Source of the DNA: an uncultured Prevotellaceae bacterium
Lineage (GTDB): Bacteria; Bacteroidota; Bacteroidia; Bacteroidales; Muribaculaceae
DNA length: 64,000 nt
Assembly (NCBI GenBank): GCA_900318645.1
Contig: ONLH01000002.1
Coordinates: forward strand, 1 to 64,000
Reading direction: 5' to 3'
Of the stretch, positions 1 to 11,738 are shown piece by piece. The notes beneath the pieces were generated by a model, which had not been told where the DNA came from, ran no database searches, and saw only the letters and a list, made by a program, of their open reading frames with translations. Within the stretch, counting starts at the first letter, position 1; every line of letters starts with the position of its first letter. A program made the position numbers and the translations under genes.

Positions 1-306
1 TGAGCTTGCATGGTGTTTTCCATAAAAGTCGAGTCTTCGACCCGACCTGCCTCTACGAGGCAAAAGCCAAGCCCATGATACAGCAGAAATGCTTATTCGA
101 CTCATTTGTTGTGAATTATGCAGATGTTGAATATATTTACCGGACACTAATGATAAAAATTAAACAAAATACATTTTTATTTTAATTTTATCAATAATTT
201 TTAATTTCTCGGCCGTTAGGCCGATTAAAAATCACGAGGTGAATTATGACACAGCCTCAAGTACTGGTTTGGCAACTTGTTGATTGATAGCGATTTTTAA
301 TTCATT
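1..306. other. Intergenic region left of the terminase cassette
   Basis: I see no convincing coding region here. The right part (153-253) holds the left copy of a direct repeat described separately. The rest (1-152) has no recognisable gene, RNA or terminator; a gene end entering from the left edge cannot be excluded. Confidence 0.5.
153..253 (+). repeat. Direct repeat, left copy (about 101 bp)
   Basis: This stretch is nearly identical to 4405-4508, in the same orientation, with one 3-nt length difference and a few substitutions. It has an AT-rich half in which AAAATTAAA and TTTAATTTT can pair, then a GC hairpin TCGGCC-GTTA-GGCCGA, then a conserved tail ending in GACACA. The two copies bracket the two-gene phage-like unit at 307-4221. 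Function is unknown; it could be a mobile-element end, a dispersed REP-like element, or a scar of recombination. Confidence 0.85.
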
Positions 307-2205
307 TCAATTAATGAATGCGACTGTGCCAGGCTCGGGTTCCGATGGGTGATTAGGGAAGAAGTCCTCTGGTCTGGCATGCTTGCCGCACTTCAATCTC
401 TTGTCCATTAACACCAGCAGGCCGATGGCACGCGTCATCAGGATGTCGTCATGCTTGCCCTGACGTGCCGCATAGGTACCGTTGCGTTCCTGATAATCGC
501 GCATTTCGTTCACTGCATCCATGTCACGCTCGATATATTCCCCATCACGCACTGCCCTGATCAACTCAGTTATCGCCTCTCGTTTGGTCTTGACATTGGT
601 GTGGAAGCCCAGTTGCTTGCCATCGCGCTTGTACAGATTGCCATACAAGCGGTACAGCGTCTGCAGGATATACTCACTCTCGCCAGCGCGTGCCGCTTCG
701 TTGATGAGCGTGTTACACTCAATCACCAGCAAGGCCTTATGATAGAACAAAGCCAACTGCATCGACTTGATGGCCAGTTGATCATGATCAATGTGTCCGC
801 GCCACTGGGCCACGATTTCCTTCGGACGTGACCCGTCACCGTCTCGCCATACAGCAATCACCGAATAGTCGCTCGACTCGCTGCGCCCTCCCACATCAAC
901 CACCACCAGATAGCGCACATTGACAGGCAACCCCATCTGAGGCATTTCCCACACCTTGAGTAGGCCGTTGGATTCAGCCACCAGATGAACATTCTCCTTG
1001 GCTAACAATCCGCTCGCGGCTGCACCCTGGATGTCGCCCACCAATATCGGGGGCTTGGAACAACCCTTCTCCAACTCATCAAGATGTTCGCGCTTGAAGG
1101 GATTGTTGCCGCTTGTACTGAAGGCCTCGCTGGCACTGCCCGGATACTCGGCCATCATCAGTTCGTGGGTGCGGTACTCCTTACGCTTGGCGTGATACCA
1201 GTTGATCTGTTCCAGCGTGCGCCCGTCGTCCCACAACGCCCGTTCATACTCATCCATAGACTCCCACAGTGCCACCGGATCATCGACAGCACGGGCATAA
1301 CCGTCTATCTCATACCATGGCACAAATACCGGCACCTTGTCGCTCCGACCCAACTCAGCGCGCAGCCACTCGTCGTGAAAATAGTCACCCACACCGTCGG
1401 CGGTGGACTCCAGCACGACGACAGTCTCAGGCTTCAACGCCACGCTACCGCACACGCTGCGCACCACATCATCGGGCGAATGCATGGCACTTTCCTTCCA
1501 GAAAGCCACCTCGCTCAAGTGAGCCATGGATATGTCATAGCCACGCACGGCATCCTCACTGCGGGAGCTGCCAGTCAATACCAGGCAATCCCGTGCCTCC
1601 AGTTGCTGCACATTGGGTTGACCCTCCAGTTTAGAGAACAACAGTTTGGCCCCTGGATCATCAAGCATCTCGCGCGGATAGTGACTGAGCAGCAGGTTAT
1701 ACATCCGCTTGATACACTTACTCGTCATGTGCAAGTATCCACAAATCAGACTATTCCACCCCGTGTGACGCACCAGCTGCATCCATGCCAGGTACATCTG
1801 CACCAGTGTCGAGCCGCCCCACTGGCGTGCCTTGAGCAGGATGACGCGCACGGGTAGGCCTGCCACCCGTTGCTCCTCTATCACACCCAGCAACCGCCGC
1901 TGGGGACGGTTGAGCACCAGGGGCACATTCTTGCTACTCTGTTTGTCCTTGATGGTCACGCAACGGGCACACCAGAATTCAAAGTCCTCTTGGATACGCG
2001 CCTTGTCCTGCTCGGTCGATGACAAAGACACGAAGTCAGGATGATGCGCCAGCACCGAACGGGGCACACGACGCCCCGCTACCTCCACCCTATCGCCCCA
2101 GCAACCGATGCCGAGCAACGGATCATAAAGGTCGCCTTCAAGTTTCGCCCGGCGCCTCCCATTCTCTTGTAGAATCTTATCAAGTGTGTTTTCCATGGTA
2201 CTCAT
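307..2205 (-). CDS. Phage-type large terminase subunit (TerL)
   Basis: Predicted DNA-packaging motor: an ATPase that translocates DNA and a nuclease that cuts it. The 632-residue protein has a Walker A-like segment (LLKARQWGGST, about residues 123-133), a Walker B-like segment ending in Glu232 (MAHLSEVAFW), a following STADG coupling-type motif near 268, and an RNase H-fold nuclease with candidate metal ligands Asp437 (VVVDVGG), Glu496 (VIECN) and Asp586/587 (KHDDILM). Length and motif order match complete terminases, so this is not a fragment. It lies 3 nt downstream of the 670-residue gene and is probably co-transcribed. No portal, capsid, small terminase or integrase gene is nearby, which is odd for a prophage. 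The family call is firm; its present role is unknown. Confidence 0.85.
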   Translation of the reverse strand: MSTMENTLDKILQENGRRRAKLEGDLYDPLLGIGCWGDRVEVAGRRVPRSVLAHHPDFVSLSSTEQDKARIQEDFEFWCARCVTIKDKQSSKNVPLVLNRPQRRLLGVIEEQRVAGLPVRVILLKARQWGGSTLVQMYLAWMQLVRHTGWNSLICGYLHMTSKCIKRMYNLLLSHYPREMLDDPGAKLLFSKLEGQPNVQQLEARDCLVLTGSSRSEDAVRGYDISMAHLSEVAFWKESAMHSPDDVVRSVCGSVALKPETVVVLESTADGVGDYFHDEWLRAELGRSDKVPVFVPWYEIDGYARAVDDPVALWESMDEYERALWDDGRTLEQINWYHAKRKEYRTHELMMAEYPGSASEAFSTSGNNPFKREHLDELEKGCSKPPILVGDIQGAAASGLLAKENVHLVAESNGLLKVWEMPQMGLPVNVRYLVVVDVGGRSESSDYSVIAVWRDGDGSRPKEIVAQWRGHIDHDQLAIKSMQLALFYHKALLVIECNTLINEAARAGESEYILQTLYRLYGNLYKRDGKQLGFHTNVKTKREAITELIRAVRDGEYIERDMDAVNEMRDYQERNGTYAARQGKHDDILMTRAIGLLVLMDKRLKCGKHARPEDFFPNHPSEPEPGTVAFIN

Positions 2206-2208
2206 CTT

Positions 2209-4221
2209 TTAAAAACCCGAGCAGGAATAAATCAGGGTTGGCAGTAGCAGGGTACCACTGCGAGCGACACCGTTGAGCGACAAGCGTAGCGTGCGGCAAG
2301 GCACCATCACTGTGGGGGCAGCCAAGGGATGCTCGACTGCTCCAGCCACTGCGATGACGCTCACGTCACCGTCCATCGCCATGATGCCGCGCTGTCCTGT
2401 CACCCTTAACGTCAATTCCAGATTCTCACCGCTCACGTGCCACACGACACGGCGCACTGTCCTCGCCAGCAACGGGTTCATGGCAACGGGATGGCTGTGC
2501 CACATCACGGGCAACACTTCATCGGTCTCAACCTCAAGATCCAACACAGTTCCGATATCGGTCACGGCGACGGCATGACGCGGGTCACTGTATAGCTGGA
2601 CGGCATCGATGGTGCGTACACTCATGCGACCGCTAGGCATCATCACGAGCGGATAACCCGTGGCACGCAACAGCCACAACTCCTGATGGGCAGCACTCCA
2701 CGCCATCCCCTTGCAATCCACATCGCGCTGACAAATCACCAGCCGGGAGCCGTTCAGGCGGCACAGATGCCCATGACGAGAAATGAGCCAGATGTCGCCA
2801 CCGCCCTCGATGGGTGACACGTCAGTCGCGATGACGGTGCGGTCAACCAGCCGCGCCTCACCTAAAGAGCCCTGCGTTCCTTGTGGAATGGCATAGATAC
2901 CGTCGTCGGTAAACACATAGACCGGATAGCGCCCAAAACCGCTTGAATACAAGGGCCGCGTCACCACTGCCATTGACAACGGAACGGCCCCCACCACACG
3001 ACGCCGATGAGCCTCGGCAAGAGCGTTGCCGATTTCACTAGACACCACATCACCGTCACGGGTGCAGCAATACAGACGTCCCCCGGCTAGTGTCGAACAA
3101 ACAACCCCCTCAAGCGACGGTAACCGACCGATGGCGCTGCATTTGGCCGAGGTCAGTGTCATCAACTCATCAGGCGCCACAAAGTCACTACCCGTTACCT
3201 GGGATGAAGCGGGTGCTCGTGCAACAAGGTGCCACGACGAGGCGGCAAGTTCACGGGAAATGGCATCGGCACTGCGGCGCGAGAGTCCCATCTCCAACTG
3301 ATATTCTCGTCCTCCCACCGTTCGTGTCACACATCGGTAGTCCAACGAGCGGCTTGCAGTGAGCAACTGGGCCTCATCGGTGGCAAACACATCGATCGAC
3401 GCCACCAGGGGCAGCCACTCGGCAGCGATGTCACGTGTCACATCGATGTCCAGACCATAGTGTTTCAAGCTCAATGTGGTGGCTTCAATGCCGGTAAAGC
3501 CACTGCCTGTCACGACCACATCAGCAGCGATGCGGTCGGCATTGGCAAGAGTCACGTCACCCACTCTCATCGGATCACTCATCCACAGGTAGCTCCCGTC
3601 ACGCAGGCGCAGGGCCCAGCGCACCAGCATCGGCGCGAGGTGACGCCCCTCGGCACGCACGTCGGACGACAGAGCCGACCAGGCAGAGCGCAGGCGGGCG
3701 GTCAGTGCTGCCGTGTCGGCATCAGCAAGCGGTGCTTGCCATTGCGTGTAAGGCTCGGCAAAGGCATAGGCATCAATCCCAACGCTGATGGTGGTAACAG
3801 CAGCACCGATGGCCAGTTGCGGGATGGCATCGGCAGCATTGAGCACACTCCAAGCGCCCTCGTGCATCCTGAGATAGGTAAGTCCTGCATCGGTAACGAT
3901 GACAAGAAGTTCACCGATGGCATGAGCGCCAACGATTTGGCCCGTGACGGTGACAACTGGCGCGCCATCAATTTTGACCGTATTGCCGCGACATGTCACC
4001 CTGTAACTGTCGGCAAACAGCAACAGCCGTTCCCCAACCCCAATAGTACCCGATACTGACGGTTGTCCAGTCACTTGCAGCGATGACTCTCGCTCTCGCA
4101 CGTTCTGCGCCAGCAGAGCCTCACCACACTGTGCCGCCTCACCATTGGAGAGCGGCTCCATTCCACGGGCTATCACCCGTAGTTCTTTCATGTCCTCTTT
4201 CTTTTTCATGGTATTCTTCAT
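2209..4221 (-). CDS. Conserved-looking protein of unknown function paired with terminase
   Basis: I do not recognise this 670-residue protein by family. It has no signal peptide; the N-terminus offers several Met codons (4221, 4209, 4191), so the exact start is uncertain. It is rich in beta-strand-like segments with recurring short blocks (for example GVGERLLLFAD, GELLVIVTDAGLTYL, GRLYCCTRDGDVVSSE, PVYVFTDDGIYAIP, GDIWLISRHGHLCRL), a pattern that suggests a beta-propeller. Phage tail-tube, needle or DNA-stabilisation proteins can have such folds, and the adjacent terminase makes a virion-related origin plausible, but this is inference. It is the first gene of the two-gene unit, ending 3 nt before the terminase start. 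Confidence 0.55.
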   Translation of the reverse strand: MKNTMKKKEDMKELRVIARGMEPLSNGEAAQCGEALLAQNVRERESSLQVTGQPSVSGTIGVGERLLLFADSYRVTCRGNTVKIDGAPVVTVTGQIVGAHAIGELLVIVTDAGLTYLRMHEGAWSVLNAADAIPQLAIGAAVTTISVGIDAYAFAEPYTQWQAPLADADTAALTARLRSAWSALSSDVRAEGRHLAPMLVRWALRLRDGSYLWMSDPMRVGDVTLANADRIAADVVVTGSGFTGIEATTLSLKHYGLDIDVTRDIAAEWLPLVASIDVFATDEAQLLTASRSLDYRCVTRTVGGREYQLEMGLSRRSADAISRELAASSWHLVARAPASSQVTGSDFVAPDELMTLTSAKCSAIGRLPSLEGVVCSTLAGGRLYCCTRDGDVVSSEIGNALAEAHRRRVVGAVPLSMAVVTRPLYSSGFGRYPVYVFTDDGIYAIPQGTQGSLGEARLVDRTVIATDVSPIEGGGDIWLISRHGHLCRLNGSRLVICQRDVDCKGMAWSAAHQELWLLRATGYPLVMMPSGRMSVRTIDAVQLYSDPRHAVAVTDIGTVLDLEVETDEVLPVMWHSHPVAMNPLLARTVRRVVWHVSGENLELTLRVTGQRGIMAMDGDVSVIAVAGAVEHPLAAPTVMVPCRTLRLSLNGVARSGTLLLPTLIYSCSGF

Positions 4222-4278
4222 TGATATGATAACGTAAACTCGATGAAAAAAGAGTTGATACTCAATTCATCCGCTATG

Positions 4279-4304
4279 TAGAGACGCAAAATTTTGCGTC
4301 TCTA
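4279..4304. repeat. Perfect 26-bp palindrome
   Basis: The arms TAGAGACGCAAAA and TTTTGCGTCTCTA are exact reverse complements with no spacer. It sits in the gap upstream of the terminase cassette, next to the hairpin repeats. Palindromes of this kind occur as dispersed intergenic elements in several bacterial groups. There is no T-run, so a terminator is unlikely. Confidence 0.8.
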
Positions 4305-4340
4305 GGGCAGCATTTTGGTGAGACCTATCGATTGGGGGCC

Positions 4341-4400
4341 GTGTCATAATTCATTCGTTGCAAATTAAGTCGCGCTTCGAGCGAGAAATTAAGCAAAAAT
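4341..4400 (-). repeat. Diverged inverted copy of the cassette-flanking repeat
   Basis: Read on the minus strand this stretch follows the layout of 153-253: GTGTCATAATTC, a spacer, AATTA, a hairpin (here TCGC-GCTTCGA-GCGA instead of TCGGCC-GTTA-GGCCGA), GAGAAATTAA and an A/T tail. It lies head-to-head with the copy at 4405-4508. The different stem sequence at the same place suggests a structured element that keeps pairing while its sequence drifts. Confidence 0.5.
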
Positions 4401-4404
4401 TTTT

Positions 4405-4508
4405 ATAAAAATTAAACAAAATACATTTTTATTTTAATTTTATTAATAATTTTGTTTAATTTCTCGGCCGTCAGGCCGATTAAAAATCACGAGGCGAATT
4501 TTGACACA
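4405..4508 (+). repeat. Direct repeat, right copy (about 104 bp)
   Basis: Partner of 153-253 in the same orientation, separated by the two-gene terminase unit. It has the same AT-rich inverted half, the same GC hairpin (TCGGCC-GTCA-GGCCGA) and the same tail to GACACA, with a 3-nt insertion relative to the left copy. Confidence 0.85.
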
Positions 4509-4527
4509 TCCCCTTCAGCACGCAGCA

Positions 4528-10667: not shown

Positions 10668-11738
10668 ATGAGAAGTAAGAGTTATATCGCTATCCTGTTC
10701 GCCCTCGCGATTGCCATCGTGATGATGTTCTGCGGCCGGGACCGCAAGCGATATTTCTCTAACGAGGGCGTTGTCTGGACTACCGAATACCACATCACCT
10801 ACGAGGCCAGCCGCGACCTGGGCGACAGCATCCAGCTCATCTTCCATAACCTGGACATGAGTGTCTCGCCCTATAACAAAGCCTCACTCATCAGCGCCAT
10901 CAACGGCAACACATCATCGCTCGTTGATGCCTACCTTAAACGCCTCATCGACGCTTCGCGCATCGTCAACCGCGAGAGCGGCGGAGCCTTCGACCCCACG
11001 GTGATGCCACTGGTCAACGCATGGGGCTTCGGCTACAAGAACGGCGCCCTACCCTCTCGTGCTCAGCTCGACAGCATCCTGCAGTTCATCGGGATGGATA
11101 AGGTCACGCTCCACGGCGACACCATCGTCAAAAATGACCCGCGCGTGATGCTCGACTTCTCATCCATCGCCAAGGGGATGGCCTGTGACGAAATCGGACG
11201 CATGCTCGTCCGCAATGGTGCCGTCAACTGGCTTGTCGAGATTGGCGGCGAAGTGATGGCCAGCGGCGTCAACAGCCGCGGCACGTCATGGCTCGTCTCG
11301 GTAGATATGCCAATTTCGTACACGGGGACGGTTCTTTTGTACGAAAAATCGGATTTTTCGTACAAAAGAACCGTCCCCGTGTACGAAAACAGCCATGAGA
11401 GCGCCCTCACGCTGTCAATAGACAGCGGTGCCGTCGCCACCAGCGGTAACTACCGCAAATGGCGCATGGAGGGCGGCAACAAACTGTCCCACATCATCGA
11501 TCCGCACACGGGAAACAGCCAGGCAGGGACCCTGCTCAGCGTCACCGTCATCGCCAACGACTGCATGACAGCCGACGCCTGGGCGACAGCCTGCATGGTA
11601 ATGGGAGAAAACCAAGTGAAAAAAGTAATGGAGAGCCGGCGCGACCTCGGCGTAATGACCATCAGCGCCGACACGGTCGCTGACGCCCTCATCGTCTGGA
11701 GCAATGCCCCCTTCGCCGAGAGAGTCAAGACACAATAG
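10668..11738 (+). CDS. apbE: FAD:protein FMN transferase (ApbE), lipoprotein-like
   Basis: Transfers FMN from FAD to Thr/Ser of target flavoproteins (RnfG/NqrC-type subunits) outside the inner membrane. Seen here: an N-terminal hydrophobic segment with a Cys at 22 (MMFCG, a weak lipobox), GGAFDPTVMPLVNAWGFG, MLDFSSIAKGMACD, NWLVEIGGEVMASG, a VATSGNYRKW motif and the metal/flavin-site signature HIIDPHTG followed later by MTADAWATACMVMG. The 356-residue length is slightly above usual because 25 in-frame codons at 11314-11388 derive from a perfect palindrome lying in the variable loop between SWLVSVDMP and NSHESALTLS. All core motifs are intact, so the enzyme is probably functional. Confidence 0.92.
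   Translation: MRSKSYIAILFALAIAIVMMFCGRDRKRYFSNEGVVWTTEYHITYEASRDLGDSIQLIFHNLDMSVSPYNKASLISAINGNTSSLVDAYLKRLIDASRIVNRESGGAFDPTVMPLVNAWGFGYKNGALPSRAQLDSILQFIGMDKVTLHGDTIVKNDPRVMLDFSSIAKGMACDEIGRMLVRNGAVNWLVEIGGEVMASGVNSRGTSWLVSVDMPISYTGTVLLYEKSDFSYKRTVPVYENSHESALTLSIDSGAVATSGNYRKWRMEGGNKLSHIIDPHTGNSQAGTLLSVTVIANDCMTADAWATACMVMGENQVKKVMESRRDLGVMTISADTVADALIVWSNAPFAERVKTQ
11314..11388. repeat. Perfect 75-bp palindrome inserted in frame in apbE
   Basis: Two exact 37-bp inverted arms (11314-11350 and 11352-11388) flank one unpaired base. The arm contains CACGGGGACGGTTCTTTTGT. The unit is exactly 25 codons, leaves the reading frame open and falls in a loop that is variable in ApbE proteins. This looks like an inserted REP/MITE-type palindromic element; no target-site duplication is evident. 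Confidence 0.9.

Follow-up and report, generated by a model that had tools for sequence, protein, structure and literature searches.

The DNA analysed here, called the window throughout, is a stretch of 64,000 nucleotides comprising the first 64 kb of contig C39 (GenBank ONLH01000002.1) of an uncultured bacterium whose genome of 3.6 Mb is assembled in 75 contigs; base 1 of the window is the start of the contig. The genus of this genome has been taken as Sodaliphilus and its family (f1 in our numbering) as Muribaculaceae. Close to the left end of the window lie two adjoining genes of phage type, encoding a large terminase and a putative tail nozzle, and in this work we have analyzed this pair together with the head, tail and lysis genes that appear to belong with it. 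The pair and the direct repeats on its two sides are arranged as follows:

153-256: left copy of a direct repeat
307-2205, strand -: large terminase (TerL), packaging ATPase and nuclease, 632 amino acids, complete open reading frame (ORF); match to phrog_2, E=1.5e-19
2209-4221, strand -: tail nozzle or tail-hub protein by predicted fold (P22 gp10 / T7 gp12 / SU10 type), 670 amino acids, complete ORF
4405-4511: right copy of the direct repeat

The first-pass annotation of the window had described a tight two-gene unit with a complete terminase, and both points have been borne out. The nozzle gene lies upstream of the TerL gene on the same strand, with a gap of 3 bp. The 632-residue protein has no match in Pfam and, besides phrog_2, weakly matches T4 gp17 (E=3.7e-4). 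Its catalytic residues were followed in an alignment that combined 10 phage sequences with 128 different ones of bacterial-genome origin, of which a few (e.g. L361-L363) are prophage-like: K125, R127, Q128, E232, D437 and E496 are identical in 128/128 bacterial-genome sequences, D586 and D587 are kept in 127/128, and all eight are kept in 10/10 phage relatives.

The 670-residue partner has a single family match (phrog_32516, E=4.2e-13). Its AlphaFold2 model, built from 46 sequences (pLDDT 91.7, pTM 0.83), was compared with the PDB, and the 18 best matches by E-value (4.5e-13 to 7.9e-8) are all chains of virion or tail complexes (phages SU10, HRP29, E1004, Pa223, Kp9, Carin 1, T7, P-SCSP1u, LME-1, P22, GP4 and Sf6), with TM-scores by query length of only 0.32-0.47; past rank 18 the list holds other beta-rich proteins. 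The top match in BFVD is podoviral (TM 0.69), and several others there are named P22 Gp10 or stabilization protein. The comparison with phage tail and stabilisation proteins that the annotation had recommended thus points to a tail protein, which on the modelled fold we read as the tail nozzle. At 64 of the 80 relatives' loci the TerL and nozzle genes are immediate neighbours on the same strand; at the other 16 the nozzle gene is near, though further off or on the other strand (2), the locus is near a contig end (7) or no nozzle gene is in reach (7). Nozzle candidates in L130 and L099, and the ORF cluster c36, proved to be antisense ORFs over TerL and were dropped.

The pair had been reported as an orphan, without portal or capsid and with nothing phage-like nearby. 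Locally this stands: the four nearby ORFs on its right encode two dockerin proteins, a DJ-1/PfpI protein and an outer-membrane barrel, none of them phage-like by Pfam. It does not hold for the genome, since the missing partners are found together on another contig, C48:

Portal, 483 amino acids; PF16510 (P22_portal), E=1.4e-19
Scaffold-like gene, 137 amino acids; weak match to phrog_22323, E=0.16
Capsid, 468 amino acids; PF17236 (SU10_MCP), E=3e-49
M15 endolysin, beside the capsid gene; PF08291 (Peptidase_M15_3), E=1.3e-20, and phrog_894, E=1.5e-38

Seven neighbours of these genes on C48 were scanned and comprise an M16 peptidase, three BspA-type leucine-rich-repeat proteins, a CDP-alcohol phosphatidyltransferase, a glycerate kinase and one protein without a match. 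Host genes adjoin both loci of the set, as seen in this genome or in its subclade, and the 17 neighbouring proteins of the two loci scanned with Pfam include no integrase or replication gene.

The same components recur throughout the genus. Among 37 same-genus genomes TerL is matched in 35 (a single match in 30 of these), the portal (phrog_156) in 36 (single in 32) and the capsid (phrog_26635) in 35 (single in 31), the portal and capsid genes lying away from TerL except where they share its contig at a distance of tens of kb. The dispersal is seen most directly in G181, a genome of the same genus in one contig of 3,340,670 bp, in which TerL (936,899), portal (1,359,010) and capsid (1,893,621) are 422-957 kb apart. 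The endolysin family is present in 7 of 20 stretches examined. A connector-like family, named for its position, occurs in 10 of 25 genomes of the genus, where it stands apart from the other set genes (at L423 with no other set gene within 4 kb); it has no PHROG or Pfam match, its model is poor (pLDDT 56.1) and was not used as evidence, and a sequence search of solved structures with the portal and the connector gave nothing useful, hits to TALE repeats being taken as chance.

Further TerL copies were met in the genus. G008 carries a second, prophage-like TerL near a second capsid (L076). Four other genomes (L059, L060, L061 and L062, on G034:C10, G032:C15, G036:C5 and G024:C13) have a second TerL that has diverged fast (39-42% identity). 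This copy has its own, partly conserved neighbours, and no nozzle or portal was found next to it; as the tree places it within the Sodaliphilus TerLs, it looks like a duplicated terminase.

The left flank of the pair is not visible in the window because the window begins at the first base of the contig. In the 16 other stretches of the 17 in the subclade it consists of one conserved ORF without a Pfam match followed by DUF6048, and part of them also show DUF6452, a glycosyltransferase and two-component genes (Pfam assignments from one representative stretch). A normal prophage order, with portal or capsid genes immediately left of the pair, had been named in the annotation as a finding that would overturn its proposal; the synteny of the relatives rules such genes out in the subclade. 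The nearest flanking families of the pair recur in up to 16 of the 17 TerL stretches, and none of six neighbours of the pair in the relative L041 is phage-like by Pfam. Elsewhere in the window, at 11314-11388, there is a perfect palindrome with arms of 37 bases and a spacer of 1 base, in frame within the ORF 10668-11738, which resembles an in-frame palindromic element; a 22-mer of it was found three times in L088, the locus of the nearest relative.

The direct repeats of about 100 bp noticed earlier are real, with 92.5% identity over 107 columns. The notion that they bound a mobile cassette has been rejected, and that of a satellite remnant is not supported, because the repeats are found at many sites in the genome without framing the pair in relatives, and because the pair keeps its chromosomal neighbours across the subclade. 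A 201-base query over the left repeat gave 48 matches in the window's own genome, of which 6 fall wholly ahead of the repeat and 2 correspond to the window copies, leaving about 40 further copies or parts. BLAST (E<=1e-4) found no copy in the 21.9-kb locus L088, whose TerL is 88% identical. Six other places among the relatives' loci searched carry weaker or incomplete copies. In L090 a copy of 62 bases (81%) is found immediately upstream of the nozzle, and L062 has two that point in opposite directions, one of them about 75 bases from the second, different TerL; direct repeats framing the TerL-nozzle pair were seen at none of the relatives' loci examined. The element is intergenic, dispersed and about 105 bases long, and at several places matches on one strand overlap those on the other. 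Contigs C32, C48 and C73 each have, near their start, a match to window bases 100-162, which suggests that repeats broke the assembly at these points.

The distribution of the set was determined in 197 Muribaculaceae genomes of at least 90% completeness, representing 26 genera; the genes looked for in this work were those of TerL, nozzle, portal, capsid, scaffold, endolysin, the connector-like family and two small families of 146 and 159 amino acids. TerL is matched in 186 of the 197 genomes (25/26 genera), the portal in 187 (24/26) and the capsid in 185 (25/26), and all three are present in 174, by a hand count of the miss lists. Ruminant guts and rumens are the source of many of the nearest records. 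When the sample was extended to the order, the capsid was found in 21 of 256 genomes, namely 4 Muribaculaceae and 17 from seven other families; all 17 also match TerL and portal (G448 the portal only in part), and among them G055 has the look of a compact prophage, and a second, prophage-like set is present in G344 and G425. Apparent true prophages of the same phage family were seen in G218 (L230, L315) and, similarly, in G114, G105 and G083; these copies give very strong matches to phrog_26635 and phrog_156, and most of them occur beside a second, set-like match, portal and capsid being matched on each of two contigs in G218.

Inheritance of the set was assessed against rpoB. Of 30 genomes asked, four (G018, G014, G147 and G302) gave no rpoB and 26 were used, of which a further five (G135, G077, G079, G127 and G156) had no portal stretch, so that the portal tree has 21. 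The Mantel correlation with rpoB is 0.763 for TerL, 0.530 for capsid and 0.683 for portal, values reached in 0/2000 permutations, and within the family it is 0.843, 0.731 and 0.833 (19, 19 and 14 genomes). Between the set genes themselves it is 0.814 (TerL-capsid), 0.872 (TerL-portal) and 0.787 (capsid-portal). Splits common with rpoB number 15/23 for TerL, 15/23 for capsid and 11/18 for portal; the agreement of the set-gene trees with rpoB is good but partial. The dN/dS comparison, which the annotation had also called for, was made pairwise (NG86) on Sodaliphilus relatives for pairs with dS<1.5, at which the values are rough. The medians are 0.243 for TerL (832 pairs), 0.273 for the nozzle (461), 0.260 for the capsid (300) and 0.138 for the portal (166), with maxima of 0.38-0.69, so the packaging and structural genes are under purifying selection. 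The suggestion of a domesticated packaging module kept by selection is thus upheld by its family-wide presence, a dN/dS well below 1 and a host-like phylogeny.

The scattered arrangement is not universal, and in some other genera portal and capsid are right beside the pair. In L276 and L277, from another genus of the Muribaculaceae, eight genes lie on one strand within 10.5 and 10.2 kb: nozzle, TerL, scaffold, capsid, connector-like gene, portal and the families of 146 and 159 amino acids, the first of which is, by its position, a candidate small terminase (that gene adjoins TerL in phages). Subsets of the set occur within about 6-15 kb in L278-L282. Outside the family, G471 (one contig) has portal, capsid and TerL at 1,148,867, 1,395,213 and 1,427,570, and in G443 the three lie within 49 kb, among many ORFs unmatched to the phages compared. 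Further phage-like genes stand near the set in the sister families (L382-L384 of G443, L385-L387 of G246 and L391-L393 of G302): ORFs matching part of a giant protein of phage L079 and small genes common to L080 or L168. The proteins differ in length as well. The portal has 453-532 amino acids in 14 family genomes of the tree as against 621-714 in 7 of the sister families, with frames of up to 600 in the family genus g50; the full-length nozzle has about 630-720 amino acids in Sodaliphilus relatives, 720-878 in the rest of the family and 876-902 in four sister-family genomes. Taken together, these lengths look like stepwise trimming.

The nearest homologs of the window's TerL in phage records are those of the Bacteroides phages BF1-TP2, BKO1-TP3 and BS-TP4 (37-39% identity, at the top 38.8%), and nine IMG/VR contigs (L079-L087) encode TerLs of 36-43% identity. 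In those of the phage relatives that were looked at, the connector-like family occurs too, as do portal (phrog_156), capsid (phrog_26635) and scaffold (phrog_22323). The annotation of BF1-TP2 includes regulators and an endolysin, and a giant DarB-like protein is encoded by L079. The relatives are compact phage or prophage genomes, whereas the set to which the window's pair belongs is interspersed with genes of the host. Searched by tblastn at E 0.01, 50,697 phage records gave no match to the nozzle, and no relative in IMG/VR was found by peptide patterns; the family (phrog_32516) is, however, encoded by L087. Rooted with the distant phage L169, the TerL tree has its root inside the Muribaculaceae with weak support (0.49), and its splits were read without the root. 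One of them (support 0.969) separates the host set from a group made up of the nine near phages and four prophage-like copies.

We propose that the pair is one locus of a domesticated set of short-tailed-phage genes, dispersed in Sodaliphilus, which probably specifies a gene transfer agent (GTA). This reading rests on the retention across the family of head, motor, nozzle and endolysin genes that have descended with the host chromosome and that, in Sodaliphilus, are too scattered for the set to package itself. Phage-derived head, packaging and tail genes, vertical inheritance (to the extent of the partial tree agreement), purifying selection and a lysis gene are traits of GTAs that are all found here, as are dispersed genes, on separate contigs in the window's genome and far apart in G181, the exception being the clusters of about 6-15 kb in other genera. 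From these components we infer particles, their packaged content, their release and transfer. The scaffold and the SU10-type capsid protein would build a head on the P22-like portal; TerL would dock on the portal, fill the head with host chromosome and cut the DNA by its intact nuclease; and the connector and the nozzle would close the portal and form a short tail. The M15 endolysin may then lyse some of the producer cells, and the released particles would deliver host DNA to kin. With the set at separate chromosomal loci no single packaged fragment would hold all of it, and because the loci cannot fit one fragment its inheritance would be vertical.

How far back such an agent would reach is less certain, because the TerL tree fits one or two domestications. 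We lean somewhat towards a single ancient GTA shared by the Muribaculaceae and perhaps, by descent, by several sister families of the Bacteroidales, with a compact set persisting in some genera, the portal shortened in the family, the nozzle shortened in the line leading to Sodaliphilus and the set broken up and scattered in that genus. Several observations weigh against one or other part of this proposal. A TerL split with support 1.0 places the phages, the prophage-like copies and the 7 sister-family TerLs together, apart from the Muribaculaceae; since it joins the sister families with phages and is unrooted, both one and two domestications are possible, the second being a separate event in the sister families. 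Matches to at least one of TerL, portal and capsid are missing in 23 of the 197 family genomes (G082 alone lacks all three), including TerL in the 99%-complete G063, G103 and G141 and the capsid in the 93%-complete G032; some of the counted matches are probably true prophages, and the nearest records are mostly metagenome-assembled genomes. The shortened portal of the family could mean an altered function. In the window's own genome the scaffold assignment is weak, resting on position and the family profile, the connector-like family was found in 0/11 genomes searched of its own subclade (this genome included), and the candidate small terminase and the 159-residue family were not found in those stretches of the genus's own set that were examined.

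Other explanations have been weighed against the same data. That the genes make a domesticated particle with another job, either PBSX-like killing or interference with infecting phages of the same family, into whose assembly its head and tail proteins would mix, we consider unlikely: purifying selection on head, packaging, tail and lysis genes would be compatible with any particle-making role, and the likely prophages of the same phage family that coexist with the set in some genomes (G218) make a defensive role conceivable, but ATPase and nuclease residues intact in 127-128 of 128 sequences point to DNA packaging, and multiple dispersed operons are a described trait of GTAs (PMC12946183, Nat Commun 2026, in excerpt). 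Much the same features could be left by ordinary prophages, as independent old podoviral fragments of which some were kept by chance or for unrelated single functions. The scattering of the genes, the lineages without some parts, the shortened portal and the existence of phage relatives such as BF1-TP2, BKO1-TP3 and BS-TP4 would all accord with this, yet independent remains would hardly account for the same components in 94-95% of 197 genomes and 24-25 of 26 genera, for trees correlated with rpoB, for dN/dS medians of 0.14-0.27 and for the kept TerL residues, and we regard this explanation as very improbable.

We give next to no credence to a living temperate phage, satellite or multipartite mobile element. 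Its attraction lies in the local repeats and in the genes grouped within about 6-15 kb in some genera (L276-L282). The repeats, though, are the dispersed ones that frame nothing in relatives; conserved host neighbours stand on both sides of the pair in the subclade, the trees are host-like, and the scan of 17 neighbouring proteins bears on this point as well. An active temperate podophage would moreover be expected to have a compact, contiguous genome, and here portal and capsid are on another contig. The reading as a GTA is therefore the one retained in what follows.

None of the papers brought up by searches of the open-licence PubMed Central (PMC) literature describes a GTA in Bacteroidota, as judged by titles and the beginnings of abstracts, and the Muribaculaceae set, if it is a GTA, would be the first in this phylum known to us. 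Prophage finders would easily overlook it because its genes are scattered. If the proposal is true, a whole family of Bacteroidota possesses a built-in DNA-exchange machine, an exceptionally scattered system unable to transfer itself, and a standing route of gene exchange would exist in mouse-gut and rumen communities; members of the family are abundant in mouse guts (PMC10892684, in excerpt). The set also offers a testable case of the takeover of a phage by its host, with the apparent stages of compact clusters, shortened family portals and dispersed Sodaliphilus genes, and a specific hypothesis on how host DNA could come to be in virus fractions from the gut. An excerpt of PMC12946183 attributes GTA-like packaging in the gut chiefly to Ruminococcaceae and Oscillospiraceae, and names Bacteroides for lateral transduction.

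Compared with the tail nozzles of P22, T7 and SU10, the 670-residue protein shares the general fold only, with 7-12% identity and the TM-scores by query length given above. In RcGTA there is a single main head-tail cluster, and the tail is siphovirus-like. Unlike it, the Sodaliphilus set has its head, packaging and tail genes separated, and its tail protein is podoviral in its predicted fold. The two have in common domesticated phage genes at several loci and dependence on the host, as the alphaproteobacterial GTAs are described in the excerpt of PMC12946183. The same source calls FpGTA of Faecalibacterium the first such element in the human gut. Its host is a gut bacterium, like the hosts of the system described here, although of a different phylum, the Bacillota; particles and 8.4-8.9 kb of packaged host DNA have been shown for FpGTA, whereas the Muribaculaceae set is known from its genes. 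According to the excerpt, the second operon of FpGTA was not detected in seven strains, while the set analyzed in this work occupies up to four loci in one genus and is conserved throughout its family.

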